NCBI GenBank assembly: GCA_944340905.1
Contig: CALVLT010000003.1
Span: 17,184-81,183, forward strand
Source: an uncultured Clostridia bacterium
GTDB lineage: Bacteria > Bacillota > Clostridia > Christensenellales > Borkfalkiaceae
Direction of reading: 5' to 3'
Length of the DNA stretch: 64,000 nucleotides
Shown: positions 46,063-51,109 of the stretch, in pieces
Layout: the number at the start of each line of letters is the position of its first letter
Position numbering within the stretch: position 1 is the stretch's first letter
The notes under the pieces: model-generated
The model's input: only the letters and a program-made list of their open reading frames with translations
Databases searched by the model: none
Told to the model about the DNA's origin: nothing
Program-made: the position numbers and the translations under genes

Positions 46063-46539
46063 ATGCGCTGCCTGTATTGCAACTGTACGGAGAGCAAGGT
46101 CATCGATTCACGCTCGGCGGACGATGAGCGCACCATCCGCCGCCGCCGCGAGTGCATGGGCTGCGGACGCAGATTCACGACGTATGAGACCATCGAGGTC
46201 GCGCCCATTCTCGTCGTCAAGGCGGACGGCACCCGCCAGGCGTTCGATCTGGGCAAGATCAAGCGCGGGGTCATCAAGGCGTGCGAAAAGCGCCCCGTTC
46301 CCATTGAGAAGATCGACGAACTTGCCGAGGACATCGCCAAGCGCGTCTACAATTCCATGGAGCAGGAGATTTCCTCCAAACAGATCGGGGAGATGGTCAT
46401 GGAGGGCCTGCAAAAACTCGACGAAGTGGCATACGTGCGCTATGCCTCCGTTTACCGCTCCTTCAAGGACATTTCCTCCTTCATGGCGGAACTGCAGAAG
46501 ATGATCGAGCGCAAGGAAGGGGAAGGCGGGGCAAAATGA
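46063..46539 (+). CDS. nrdR: transcriptional repressor NrdR
   Basis: NrdR, 158 aa, an ATP/dATP-sensing repressor of ribonucleotide reductase genes. The N-terminal zinc ribbon uses C3, C6, C31 and C34 (MRCLYC ... CMGCGRRF). The ATP-cone domain (about 48-138) has VVKADGTRQAFDLGKIKRG and KISSKQIGEMVMEGL-like blocks. GGGGGAG precedes the ATG. Here it leads an operon with ispG and the PolC-derived exonuclease. No nrd gene is in the window. Confidence 0.97.
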   Translation: MRCLYCNCTESKVIDSRSADDERTIRRRRECMGCGRRFTTYETIEVAPILVVKADGTRQAFDLGKIKRGVIKACEKRPVPIEKIDELAEDIAKRVYNSMEQEISSKQIGEMVMEGLQKLDEVAYVRYASVYRSFKDISSFMAELQKMIERKEGEGGAK

Positions 46540-47573
46540 TCCGCAAGGTTTGCGTCGGCAGCTTTGTTCTGGGCGGCGGCACCGTCGCCGTGCAGAGCAT
46601 GACAACCAAAAAGACGAGCGACGTGCAGGCGTGCGTCGCTCAAATTCTTGCCCTGCAGGCGGCGGGGTGCGATATCGTACGCGTGGCGGTCGCGGACGAG
46701 GCGGACGCGCGCGCACTGCGCGCGGTCGTGGAGCGCGTGAACGTCCCCGTCGTGGCGGACGTGCACTTCTCGGCAAAGCTCGCCGTGCTCGCCGTGGAAA
46801 ACGGCGCGCACAAACTGCGCATCAACCCCGGCAACATCGGCGGCGAGGCACAGATCGCGCGCGTTGCCGCCTGTGTGAAGGCGCACCACGTCCCCGTGCG
46901 CGTGGGCGCCAATACGGGGAGCATCGAAAAAGAGCACCTTGCCAGGTACGGCAGGAGCGCGCAGGCGCTCGTCGAGAGCGCCCTTGCCAACGTCGCCGTG
47001 CTCGAGCGGCAGGGCATGGAGGACATCGTCATCTCCGTCAAGGCGTCCGACGTTCCGCTCACGGTGGAGGCGTACACGCTGCTGCGCAGCCGCTGCGGCT
47101 ATCCTCTGCATCTCGGCGTGACCGAGGCGGGAACGAAGGAGGCGGGCATCGTCAAGAGCAGCGTGGGCATCGGGGCGCTGCTGCTTGCGGGCATCGGCGA
47201 GACCATCCGCGTCTCCCTCTCTGCCGATCCCGCGGAGGAGGTGTACGCGGGGCACGCCATCCTGCGCGCCTGCGGGCTGGAGAACGACTATGTGGAAGTC
47301 GTCGCCTGTCCCACCTGCGGCAGGTGCCGCTATGACTGCATCGGGCTTGCGGCGCGCGTGCAGGATCGCGTGCGCGCGGTCAGGAAAAAGTGCAAAGTCG
47401 CCGTCATGGGCTGCGTGGTCAACGGGCCGGGCGAGGCGCGCGGGTGCGACCTCGGCATTGCGGGCGGCGAGGAGTACTGCGTCATCATACAGAAGGGAAG
47501 GGCGGACGAGCGCGTGCGCAAAGAGGATGCGGAGCGCGTCTTTTTTGAACGGCTCGAGGAATTGATCGGATGA
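46536..47573 (+). CDS. ispG: 4-hydroxy-3-methylbut-2-en-1-yl diphosphate synthase (flavodoxin)
   Basis: IspG/GcpE, 345 aa, a [4Fe-4S] enzyme of the MEP isoprenoid pathway. The N-terminal TIM barrel includes VQSMTTKKTSDV, DVHFSAKLA and KLRINPGNIG; the Fe-S domain has cysteines in ACPTCGRCRYDC and MGCVVNGPGEA. It overlaps nrdR and the next gene by ATGA. In Bacillota ispG usually precedes proS/polC and rimP; the neighbourhood is conserved except that full-length polC is missing. Confidence 0.96.
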   Translation: MIRKVCVGSFVLGGGTVAVQSMTTKKTSDVQACVAQILALQAAGCDIVRVAVADEADARALRAVVERVNVPVVADVHFSAKLAVLAVENGAHKLRINPGNIGGEAQIARVAACVKAHHVPVRVGANTGSIEKEHLARYGRSAQALVESALANVAVLERQGMEDIVISVKASDVPLTVEAYTLLRSRCGYPLHLGVTEAGTKEAGIVKSSVGIGALLLAGIGETIRVSLSADPAEEVYAGHAILRACGLENDYVEVVACPTCGRCRYDCIGLAARVQDRVRAVRKKCKVAVMGCVVNGPGEARGCDLGIAGGEEYCVIIQKGRADERVRKEDAERVFFERLEELIG

Positions 47574-49087
47574 AGAGCAGAGAGTATCTGGAAGAAATAC
47601 GGAAGGCACCCGGGCTGAGGCGCGCCGTGCTGCGCAAGATAGAGGTCTCGGGCAGGACGGCGGCGTTTTTTCTGGTGACGGACGTCACCTATTCGCCCGA
47701 GGACGTCGAATATGCGCGCGGCGTCTCGCAAAAATACGTCCCCGAAGGGTTTACGGCGCAGGCGCGCGTCCTCAAGTCGGTGCCCGACGAGGCGGGCGTG
47801 CGCCGTGCCGTGGCGGACATTCTCAAGAACCGCTTCCCCGCCGTGGCGGCGTTCGTCGATCCCGACGACATCGCCGTTGCGCTGGACGAGGGGGGCGGCA
47901 GGTTCTACATATCGGTGGGGGAGCTGGAGCGCGACCGCATGACGGGCGACGGCATCCTCGACGCCGTGAGCGCCGAACTTGCGCGCACCTTCTGCGGAAC
48001 GTGGTTCGGGGAGGTCCGCTTTGTGGAAAAGGAGCGCGGCGAGATCGAGCATGCTGCGCCGCCCGAGGCGGAGTATGTCAGCGCGCCCCGCTTTTTCCCC
48101 ATCGAGGGGTACGAGCCGATCGACGGGGCAAAGCCGATGCACGCCGTCTATCTTGCCGACCTCGTCAAGGAGATGCAGGGCGTCACCGTCTGCGGGACGG
48201 TGTCCTATATCGAAGAGCGCTCGACCAAGACGGGCAAGCCGTACTTCTCCATCTCCGTTGCCGACGCCACGGGTCAGCTGCGCTGTTCCTACTTTTCCAA
48301 AAAGGCGACCGTTGACAAGGTGCGCGCCGTCACGCAGGGTACGGGCGTATGCCTGACGGGGGACAACGAGCTGTTCAACGGCGGGCTTTCCTTCCGCGCA
48401 AAGGCGATCGACCTCGGACATGCCCCCGACGGATTTGTTCCCGAGGAGCGTCCCTCCCGCCCCGTGCCCGCGCAGTACCGCACCGTGTTCCCCGCCCCCG
48501 TCAGCGACTACGTGCAGGCGACGCTGTTCACGGGCAAGCCCTTGCCCCAGGATGTGACCGCGCGCGAATTCGTCGTGTTCGACCTGGAGACGACGGGGCT
48601 GAACAACACGCCCGCAACGGGGTCGATGGACCGCATCATCGAACTGGGCGCGGTGAAGATCCGCGGCGGGCAGATCGTCGAAAAATTTTCCACCTTTGTC
48701 GCCTGCCCCGTCCGCCTGTCGGAGGAGATCGTCAAGATCACGGGCATCACGGACGATATGCTTGTCGGCGCGCCCGAGGTCGGGGACGTGCTGGCGGACT
48801 TTTACAAGTTCACGGCGGGCTGTGCGCTCGTGGGGCACAACGTGCAGTTCGACTACAAGTTCATCCGCTATTACGGGGAGAAGGAGGGGTACCTGTTCGA
48901 TCAGAGGCAGTACGATACGATGGTCATGTCCCAGCGCATCCTGCGCCTTCCGCACAACCGCCTCAACGACGTGGCGGACTACTTCGGGTTCACCTTCCAC
49001 CACCACCGCGCGTTCGACGATGCCTTTGTCACGGCAAAGGTATTCCTCGAACTTGCCCGCCTTGCGGGAAAGCTGGAGGAAAGGTGA
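47570..49087 (+). CDS. PolC-derived OB-fold/3'-5' exonuclease protein lacking the polymerase
   Basis: A 505-aa protein with strong resemblance to the N-terminal third of PolC. Residues 1-190 resemble the PolC N domain, about 199-283 the OB domain (VTVCGTVSYIEER, GKPYFSISVAD), and 330-500 the DEDDh proofreading exonuclease: D338 and E340 in FDLETTG, GHNVQFDYKF, and H479/D484 in HHRAFDD. The split PHP domain that flanks the exonuclease in true PolC is absent: only a 45-residue linker joins OB and exonuclease, and no polymerase domain follows. The linker carries Q316-A-T-L-F320, matching the QxxLF clamp-binding pattern. It occupies the polC position between ispG and rimP. Catalytic residues are intact, so it is not a dead remnant. 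Confidence 0.88.
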   Translation: MKSREYLEEIRKAPGLRRAVLRKIEVSGRTAAFFLVTDVTYSPEDVEYARGVSQKYVPEGFTAQARVLKSVPDEAGVRRAVADILKNRFPAVAAFVDPDDIAVALDEGGGRFYISVGELERDRMTGDGILDAVSAELARTFCGTWFGEVRFVEKERGEIEHAAPPEAEYVSAPRFFPIEGYEPIDGAKPMHAVYLADLVKEMQGVTVCGTVSYIEERSTKTGKPYFSISVADATGQLRCSYFSKKATVDKVRAVTQGTGVCLTGDNELFNGGLSFRAKAIDLGHAPDGFVPEERPSRPVPAQYRTVFPAPVSDYVQATLFTGKPLPQDVTAREFVVFDLETTGLNNTPATGSMDRIIELGAVKIRGGQIVEKFSTFVACPVRLSEEIVKITGITDDMLVGAPEVGDVLADFYKFTAGCALVGHNVQFDYKFIRYYGEKEGYLFDQRQYDTMVMSQRILRLPHNRLNDVADYFGFTFHHHRAFDDAFVTAKVFLELARLAGKLEER

Positions 49088-49190: not shown

Positions 49191-49249
49191 GTATGTGGGG
49201 CAGGCCGCGGCGCGGCATTTCCGCTGCGGCGGCCCGACGGAGAGTTGAT

Positions 49250-49705
49250 ATGAACGTAAAACCCATGAAGGAAGTGGAGGAATATCTTGCGCCCGTTGCA
49301 GCGTCGGTGGGCGCGGAGCTTGTGGAGGCGGTGTGGAACAACCGCGAACGCTCTTTAACGCTCGTCATCGATGCGCCCGGCGGCGTCGACCTCAACCTGT
49401 GCGAGAAGTTCCACCATGCGGCGGACGCCGCGCTCGACGAGCTGGACCCCACCTACGGGGCGGCGTACACGCTGAACTGTTCCTCCCCGGGGCTGGACCG
49501 TCCCTTCAGGACGGAGCGCGATTTTGCGCGCCACCTGGGGGAGATGATCGAGGTGCATCTGTACGCGCCGTTCGCGGGCACAAAGTATCACGAGGGCAAG
49601 CTCACCGCCTTTGAGGGGGGCGACGTGGTGCTTGAAACGCCCAGGGGGGAACTGCGTATCCCCTTTGAAAAGACCTCCAAGGTCTGTCTGCTCATCGAAG
49701 TGTGA
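49250..49705 (+). CDS. rimP: ribosome maturation factor RimP
   Basis: RimP (YlxS/YhbC), 151 aa, needed for 30S maturation. The N-terminal domain has the family pattern LAPVAASVGAELVEAVW and LVIDAPGGVDLNLCEKF; CSSPGLDRPF is the diagnostic motif; the C-terminal Sm-like domain covers about 90-151. The start follows GGAGAG. It begins the conserved rimP-nusA-ylxR-ylxQ-infB-rbfA order. Confidence 0.95.
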   Translation: MNVKPMKEVEEYLAPVAASVGAELVEAVWNNRERSLTLVIDAPGGVDLNLCEKFHHAADAALDELDPTYGAAYTLNCSSPGLDRPFRTERDFARHLGEMIEVHLYAPFAGTKYHEGKLTAFEGGDVVLETPRGELRIPFEKTSKVCLLIEV

Positions 49706-49747: not shown

Positions 49748-50836
49748 ATGATCAACAAGGATTTCTTTGCGGCGCTCGCCGACCTCGAGCGCGAGAAGGG
49801 CATCAGCGAAGAGACGTTCATCGAGGCGCTGGAGACGGCGCTCGCCTCCGCCTATAAAAAACAGTATATCGGCGAAGGGGGGAACGTGGAGGTCAAACTC
49901 AATCCCGAAAAGGGGACCATCCGCTTTTACCTCAAGCGCACCGTCTCGGATGCGGAGGAGCTTGCCGACGGCGAGATCTCGCTCGAAGATGCGCAGCAGA
50001 TCAAAAAGAGCGCCAAGCCGGGCGACGTCCTGACGAATGAATTCACGCCCAAGGACTTCACGCGCATCGCGGCGCAGACCGCCAAGCAGGTCATCTTGCA
50101 GAAGATCCACGAGACGGAGCGCGACAACACGCTCTCCGAGTTCTCGGACAAGGAGGGCGAGCTGATGAGCGGCCTCGTGCGCAAGGTGGACGCGCGCAAC
50201 GTGTACGTCGAACTGGGCAAGGGGCAGATCGAAGGACTCATGCTCCCGCAGGACCAGGTGCCCGGCGAAAAATACCTCACGGGGGACCGCATCAAGGTGT
50301 ACGTCAAGCGCGTGAAGAGCGGCAGCCGCAACGCGCAGGTGCTCGTCTCGCGCGCCGCCCCCGGGCTGGTCAAGCGGCTCTTTGAAGAGGAAGTGCCCGA
50401 GATCAAGGCGGGCACGGTCATCGTCAAGGGCATCGCCCGCGAACCGGGGCACCGCACCAAGATGGCGATCGCCTCCGAGGATCCGCGCGTGGACGCCGTG
50501 GGCGCCTGCGTGGGCAACAAGGGCGCGCGCGTCAACGCGGTCGTCGCCGAACTTGGCGGGGAGAAGATCGACATCATCCTCTGGAGCGAAAATCCGCTCG
50601 AATTCATTGCAAAGGCGCTCTCGCCCGCCACGGTCATTTCCGTCACGCAGATGAGCGAAAAGTCCGCCATCGCCGTCGTTCCCGACGACAAGCTCTCCCT
50701 CGCCATCGGCAGGGACGGGCAGAACGCGCGGCTCGCGGCACGGCTGACGGGCTGGAAGATCGACGTCAAGAGCGAATCGGCGGCGGCGAAACTCAATCTC
50801 GACGCCCCTGCGGCGGAGCCTTCCGCGGAGGAATAA
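49748..50836 (+). CDS. nusA: transcription termination/antitermination protein NusA
   Basis: NusA, 362 aa, the short Bacillota form without the C-terminal AR repeats found in proteobacteria. The N-terminal RNAP-binding domain (1-125) starts INKDFFAALADLEREKGIS, the S1 domain (about 135-200) has SGLVRKVDARNVYVELG, and two KH domains follow with GACVGNKGARVNAV and SLAIGRDGQNARLAARL. AAGGAG precedes the ATG. Its stop abuts the ylxR start. Confidence 0.97.
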   Translation: MINKDFFAALADLEREKGISEETFIEALETALASAYKKQYIGEGGNVEVKLNPEKGTIRFYLKRTVSDAEELADGEISLEDAQQIKKSAKPGDVLTNEFTPKDFTRIAAQTAKQVILQKIHETERDNTLSEFSDKEGELMSGLVRKVDARNVYVELGKGQIEGLMLPQDQVPGEKYLTGDRIKVYVKRVKSGSRNAQVLVSRAAPGLVKRLFEEEVPEIKAGTVIVKGIAREPGHRTKMAIASEDPRVDAVGACVGNKGARVNAVVAELGGEKIDIILWSENPLEFIAKALSPATVISVTQMSEKSAIAVVPDDKLSLAIGRDGQNARLAARLTGWKIDVKSESAAAKLNLDAPAAEPSAEE

Positions 50837-51109
50837 ATGCCCGTTCAGAAAAAAATTCCCATGCGCACCTGCATCGCCTGCCGCGAGGAAAAACCCAAAA
50901 AGGAGATGCTGCGCGTCGTCAGAAATGCCGCGGGGGAGATCCGCCTCGATTTTTCGGGCAAGCTCCCCGGGCGCGGCGCATACGTGTGCGGCAGCGAGGC
51001 GTGCATCAGAAAGCTGAAAAAGTACCGCCTTCTGAACAAGACGTTCTCCGCCGACGTCGCCCCCGAGGTCTATGACGCCATCGAGGAGGAATTCCTGCGT
51101 GCAAAGTAA
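50837..51109 (+). CDS. ylxR: YlxR family protein (RnpM-like)
   Basis: YlxR/DUF448 protein, 90 aa, a small basic RNA-binding protein; the B. subtilis homologue has been linked to RNase P modulation. PMRTCIACREEKPK and LPGRGAYVCGSEAC are the family motifs. It begins immediately after the nusA stop and overlaps ylxQ by 11 nt. Confidence 0.94.
   Translation: MPVQKKIPMRTCIACREEKPKKEMLRVVRNAAGEIRLDFSGKLPGRGAYVCGSEACIRKLKKYRLLNKTFSADVAPEVYDAIEEEFLRAK

Follow-up and report, generated by a model that had tools for sequence, protein, structure and literature searches.

The polC locus of an uncultured Clostridia bacterium contained, in place of a gene for full-length PolC, a gene for a 505-amino-acid protein, and sequence comparisons identified its N-terminal domain (NTD), OB fold, and exonuclease as PolC-derived. 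This short form was conserved in families lacking PolC, and we consider it reasonably likely that the non-polymerase half of PolC survives there as a clamp-tethered trans-proofreader for the replicase DnaE1, having become non-catalytic in some lineages. The following features were assigned in the window (the whole stretch of 64,000 nucleotides that was analyzed):

46536..47573, + strand: gene taken to be ispG, upstream neighbor, overlapping by 4 bp
47570..49087, + strand: PolC-derived NTD-OB-exonuclease protein, 505 amino acids plus stop, conserved in 16 families
47570..48124, + strand: PolC-type NTD, about residues 1-185 (approximate boundary), profile-profile match to the PolC NTD
48182..48409, + strand: OB fold, residues 205-280, Pfam PF01336 (27.2 bits versus a cut-off of 27) and profile match to the PolC OB fold
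48515..48529, + strand: putative sliding-clamp-binding motif QATLF, residues 316-320, with Q316 and F320 invariant and the motif enriched in the linker
48572..49045, + strand: DEDDh 3'-5' exonuclease domain, residues 335-492, Pfam PF00929 (RNase_T), E 2e-32
49193..49705, + strand: gene taken to be rimP, downstream neighbor
49748..50836, + strand: gene taken to be nusA
50837..51109, + strand: gene taken to be ylxR

The names of the four neighboring genes are tentative, and those of ispG and rimP also follow the initial annotation.

Domain composition and PolC ancestry

The open reading frame begins with ATG and overlaps the stop codon of ispG by 4 bp. The initial annotation had described PolC-like N-terminal and OB regions, the lack of both PHP halves, and no polymerase following the exonuclease; profile comparison with PolC (see below) bore out the former, and a Pfam search the latter, with no PHP or C-family polymerase match at E values up to 1, where the remaining matches were weaker relatives of the OB fold and RNase_T. 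The DEDDh site was intact, as annotated, and consisted of D338, E340, D428, H479, and D484 (the annotation had named four of the five, omitting D428). All five residues were invariant in 69 aligned sequences (the 505-amino-acid protein and 68 relatives drawn from 77 loci, partial or distant loci being excluded) and also in 36 diverse intact rows; several of the 77 loci are titled Candidatus Gallimonas or Candidatus Borkfalkia.

The protein has no dedicated NCBIfam model, and in the NCBIfam models of PolC only the exonuclease was matched well, far under the cut-off (148 bits versus 873). The closest solved chain by sequence was a PolC exonuclease (2p1j, 114 bits), whereas chains of Pol III epsilon (1j53, for example) scored 41 bits; since the protein was closer to PolC than to epsilon, a separate origin from epsilon is likely.

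The N-terminal part was too diverged for Pfam detection, and its PolC nature holds by profile comparison. When NTD and OB fold were compared together with those of nine PolCs from the same order, the E value was 8e-24 over 285 columns for 30 short forms of other families and 9e-15 for the window's own family. The OB fold alone matched the PolC OB fold at 2e-18 (other families) and 9e-13 (own family), and the NTD alone matched the PolC NTD at 3e-10 in the other families and more weakly in the window's own (1.2e-5, probability 81%); three cross-domain profile controls gave nothing (0.15 to 0.46). In an exonuclease tree, constructed without L117-L119 and without the catalytically dead versions described below, the intact short forms made up one clade (support 79) among the PolC exonucleases, where a group of other separate exonucleases was also placed, and the branching point of the short forms among the PolCs was not settled (supports of 54-81). 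A separate 227-amino-acid exonuclease of an f3 genome (L223, G002:C8:74582-75112) was found on a long branch inside the short-form clade with the window's family, a position that may reflect either transfer of an exonuclease domain or an artefact of the tree.

The gene neighborhood was also that of polC. The initial annotation had placed the gene in the polC position, between the ispG region and rimP, and this was confirmed at all nine sister-family loci read, where a PolC open reading frame lay in the same neighborhood with ispG and/or rimP beside it. Among the 146 short-form genes read, ispG was upstream of 128 and rimP downstream of 116; 143 had one or both of these neighbors and 101 had both; ispG was not seen beside the short-form gene at the f28 loci, and some of the 146 stretches end before rimP. 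An unrelated fusion of an OB fold and an exonuclease was rejected on two grounds: the NTD matched that of PolC on its own, and the gene occupies the polC locus.

Distribution of PolC and of the short form

A PolC profile search of 248 genomes from 33 families of the order detected no PolC in 154/154 genomes, which were all the sampled members of 16 families; their best match to the profile (E 2.6e-50) was an exonuclease. In the other 17 families, PolC was found whole or in pieces in 87/94 genomes (81 over the cut-off and six with pieces), and of the seven genomes without it, six were at most 88% complete and one (G039) 96%. One genome of the order, 74% complete, contained two PolC-like genes (G022:C16 and G022:C57).

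The short form, defined as an open frame of at least 466 amino acids beginning with the NTD-OB match, was present in 144 of the 154 PolC-less genomes (a fragment in two and none in eight), and in 131/131 of those with completeness of 90% or more and contamination of 5% or less. Its open frames, of about 470-760 amino acids, recurred in the 16 families, which answers the question raised by the initial annotation of whether the short form is conserved in relatives. The whole-genome profile match reached only positions 315-328 in three genomes (G044, G183, and G085), the rest of their frames of about 500 amino acids being too diverged, and the short forms of G020 and G030 matched in pieces. In the window's own genome (84% complete), the profile search found no PolC, with a best match of E 7.5e-37; the intact polC elsewhere that the annotation had considered damaging to its proposal was thus not found at this completeness, and the probable absence of PolC leans on the relatives.

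A species tree from IspG, NusA, and RimP (60 taxa and 841 columns, L144 dropped and 16 others on IspG alone) separated PolC genomes from short-form genomes with support of 81. This was consistent with one truncation, and we infer a single one, an origin that depends on the midpoint rooting of the tree.

Outside these families, 344 of 391 genomes in a sample of the class, 19 of which belong to the order, were over the PolC cut-off. No NTD-OB-exonuclease short form was found among the matches listed in 22 class genomes with weak or partial PolC (20 outside the order whose best PolC E value exceeded 1e-70, as well as G481 and G503, which have partial PolC); the N-terminal match in G503 lay inside a 1035-amino-acid frame, and that in G279 (76% complete) covered positions 100-291 in a 331-amino-acid frame on a locus stretch of 2126 bases. 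In a sample of the phylum, 251/398 genomes matched the short-form profile at E 1e-30 or better, and only the window's own protein spanned the NTD among the matches listed. PolC loss also occurs elsewhere, and retention of the NTD-OB-exonuclease half looks specific to the clade.

Apparent complete loss, with neither PolC nor a remnant found, was observed outside the order in four genomes of family f107 (G515, G547, G581, and G598) and in four of genus g153 in family f71 (G285, G386, G448, and G485), two of the latter being only 78-85% complete. Genome G384 had a PolC-length frame and also a 481-amino-acid frame matching profile positions 289-501 (G384:C1:206804-207445), a possible second PolC-related exonuclease protein.

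The linker motif and the catalytically dead versions

The QATLF sequence that had been annotated at residues 316-320 was present, with Q316 and F320 invariant in the 69 aligned sequences; the motif was absent from a more distant member of the window's family (G042). Of the 116 proteins with an intact catalytic site, 78 carried the canonical form, Q-x-x-[LIM]-[FLY], whose two middle residues vary freely, in the 40 residues preceding the exonuclease and 38 did not, versus 45 of 1540 other 40-residue segments of 144 proteins (counted on uncut proteins, with fragments G117 and G093 excluded). The clamp-binding-like motif of the initial annotation was, by this enrichment, far above chance. Family f6 was the main exception, with the canonical motif in 4/17, L-F without Q in eight, and neither in five, as read from the printed linkers (the xxxLF pattern also catches unrelated matches in the 40-residue segment). 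A looser pattern was matched in 103/106, including QSNIF in L129. In the linker (window positions 48440-48559, residues 291-330), a conserved P-x-x-Y-x-x-V-x-P stretch was also seen in many rows just before QxxLF. Separate exonucleases with printed sequences had no QxxLF before the exonuclease, except for L185 (G006, family f7), with QDYLF about 50 residues before its exonuclease match.

In the sister PolCs, Qxx[LI]F was located at the C terminus in 8/9, and no such motif was found at the C-terminal end of the 505-amino-acid protein. In B. subtilis PolC, the clamp motif QLSLF is reported to be the last five residues, and attempts at truncation to have failed, in the portion available of PMC12309361. 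The ancestral clamp motif was probably lost with the polymerase and may have been replaced by that in the linker, such that QATLF would mediate clamp binding.

The DEDDh site was intact in 117 of the 146 short-form genes read and degenerate in 28, one fragment being not judgeable. Catalytic residues were lost in 12/12 proteins of family f16, 14/16 of f19, and 2/16 of f32 (28/144 proteins), which corresponds to losses in at least three lineages; this number is a minimum because f16 was not monophyletic in the species tree. The dead versions retained NTD, OB fold, linker, and the same neighborhood, with open frames of 484-559 amino acids. In 12 dead pairs (f16 and f19 only), dN/dS, where it could be computed, was 0.05-0.17 in each half, although dS approached saturation, and in all eight close intact pairs compared, the exonuclease was better conserved than NTD-OB; judged by these sequence comparisons, the short protein is under purifying selection. 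The canonical motif was rarer in the dead than in the intact proteins (3/28 versus 78/116), and Q at the motif place was kept in 28/28 dead proteins. A second exonuclease-domain match (E 1e-15 or better) was found in 19/28 genomes with a dead version versus 13/116 (Fisher p 4e-9, no correction for relatedness), a difference that is suggestive only and would fit a transfer of the catalytic function to a different protein. Since a dead exonuclease is kept in some lineages, proofreading cannot be the only role everywhere, and a non-catalytic role, original or gained, is indicated where such versions persist.

Possible roles beside DnaE1

The only match to the C-family polymerase domain (PF07733) in the window's genome (84% complete) was a DnaE1 on another contig, of 1196 amino acids and adjoining a gene that we take to be whiA. 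It contained a clamp-type motif (QMSLF) and an intact PHP site (HHDHEHCDH), and the four PHP matches of this genome were all on other contigs. With DnaE1 present and PolC absent at this completeness, the genome showed the DnaE1-only pattern of replication, in line with the initial proposal that the replicase is encoded elsewhere. A partner polymerase carrying the missing parts was rejected: the sole PF07733 protein found was this ordinary DnaE1 with its own PHP domain and QMSLF. In a search of 30 genomes, the PHP active site HHDHEHCDH was intact in 27/27 DnaE1s read (four from genomes with PolC and 23 from those without; the DnaE1 of G146 was split). DnaE1 was not found in two of the 26 PolC-less genomes searched (G041 and G241, 93-94% complete), presumably because of gaps, yet this limits the statement that DnaE1 is always present.

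In the reading that we favor, polC would have lost its first PHP half (between OB fold and exonuclease) in the ancestor from which a large clade of gut bacteria descends, together with everything past the exonuclease (the second PHP half and the polymerase), and NTD, OB fold, and exonuclease would have stayed in place at the polC locus. DnaE1, the only C-family polymerase found, would copy both strands. The remnant may act like epsilon of E. coli, as a clamp-held exonuclease bound through QxxLF that removes mispaired 3' ends of DnaE1 in trans, the linker motif standing in for the C-terminal motif lost with the polymerase. If the ancestral PolC exonuclease already proofread DnaE1 in trans, the polymerase could have become dispensable while the proofreading half was still useful; such an ancestry fits the retained DEDDh site and clamp motif, but the dead versions need a further explanation. 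Decay of the catalytic site in at least three lineages would have left a protein kept for a non-catalytic role, for example in tethering DnaE1, the clamp, or the clamp loader. With its intact PHP domain, DnaE1 would provide additional proofreading, which may have allowed catalysis to be lost. The earlier proposal that domain loss turned polC into a free proofreading factor is supported as a reading, in which exonuclease activity, clamp binding, and proofreading of DnaE1 are all predicted from sequence. Trans-proofreading has a precedent because, in B. subtilis, the PolC exonuclease is reported to proofread DnaE errors in trans, in a complex of DnaE, PolC, and template (PMC5627055, as far as accessible). 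On the other hand, DnaE1 may proofread for itself since its PHP site was intact in every copy read, which counts against the favored reading, as do the 28/144 proteins with a lost catalytic site and the 38/116 intact ones with no canonical motif; self-proofreading has been reported for DnaE1 of M. tuberculosis (accessible part of PMC5636811).

It is rather unlikely that the protein serves chiefly as a replisome component without catalysis, whose NTD and OB fold would bring together the clamp, DnaE1, the clamp loader, or single-stranded DNA, with a dispensable exonuclease. The loss of the catalytic site in f16, f19, and part of f32 with frames and neighborhood kept, the low dN/dS of dead f16 and f19 pairs in both halves (with dS near saturation), and the PHP site intact in 27/27 DnaE1s agree with such a role, but the DEDDh site was intact in 117/146 genes, the exonuclease was the better conserved half in 8/8 close intact pairs, and the motif was rarer without a catalytic site, as expected if it serves the exonuclease.

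DEDDh exonucleases serve many roles, and an intact PHP domain in DnaE1 could cover proofreading, in which case the short protein would be a nuclease for repair or end trimming that is guided by the clamp, and not a proofreader at replication. We regard this as improbable: its PolC ancestry and polC locus, its presence in 131/131 high-quality PolC-less genomes across 16 families, and the known trans-proofreading by PolC (PMC5627055, same portion) all point to replication. An explanation by a pseudogene in decay, or by an artefact of assembly or binning, is hardly credible. The named relatives are metagenome-assembled genomes by title, the window's genome is 84% complete, and dead exonucleases exist, but the presence in all 131 high-quality genomes, the recurrence of open frames of about 470-760 amino acids in 16 families, and the purifying selection, with catalytic residues invariant in 36 diverse intact rows, led us to reject it for the protein family.

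Three replicase sets have been published, namely, DnaE1, PolC with DnaE1, and PolC with DnaE3 (PMC3919608 and PMC12926913, in the parts available). Timinskas 2014 noted some Clostridia with DnaE1 alone and regarded the function of PolC alongside DnaE1 as unknown (PMC3919608, in part), and the accessible text of a 2026 survey of complete genomes describes Clostridia as PolC with DnaE1 (PMC12926913); one of these surveys raises the question of the task left to PolC where DnaE1 is fully equipped (PMC3919608, PMC12926913, available portions). DnaE1 with a polymerase-stripped PolC, re-equipped with a linker clamp motif and later deprived of catalysis in at least three lineages but kept as a replisome adaptor, may represent a fourth bacterial arrangement, which we put forward tentatively. 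No description of a polymerase-less PolC was found among the papers listed in searches of the open-licence full text of PMC, mostly outside subscription journals, and a term search of the available text of the ibezapolstat paper PMC11963600 gave no match on the subject. Inhibitors of PolC, ibezapolstat among them, would have no target in these gut commensals. The clade offers a natural experiment on what PolC contributes alongside DnaE1, in which the polymerase was dropped and the NTD-OB-exonuclease half kept.

The short protein shared with PolC the order of NTD, OB fold, and exonuclease, homologous by profile and at the same locus, but differed from it in having no PHP domain split around the exonuclease, no polymerase, and the clamp motif in the linker rather than at the C terminus. 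Epsilon (DnaQ) of E. coli Pol III is likewise a separate DEDDh exonuclease beside DnaE1, with a clamp-binding-type motif located after its exonuclease; the short protein, unlike epsilon, has NTD and OB fold in front, its motif before the exonuclease, and no C-terminal tail. It illustrates a route by which a polymerase, once stripped, could give rise to an epsilon-like subunit. The mirror image of this domain loss is also known among clostridial PolCs, with the polymerase kept and the exonuclease lost: 6% of PolCs are without the exonuclease insertion, nearly all in Clostridia and Negativicutes (PMC3919608, part available). The nuclease part was likewise kept in PolX-like proteins without a polymerase region, for which a repair role has been suggested (PMC12926913, accessible text), but these belong to another family and their nuclease is of the PHP type.
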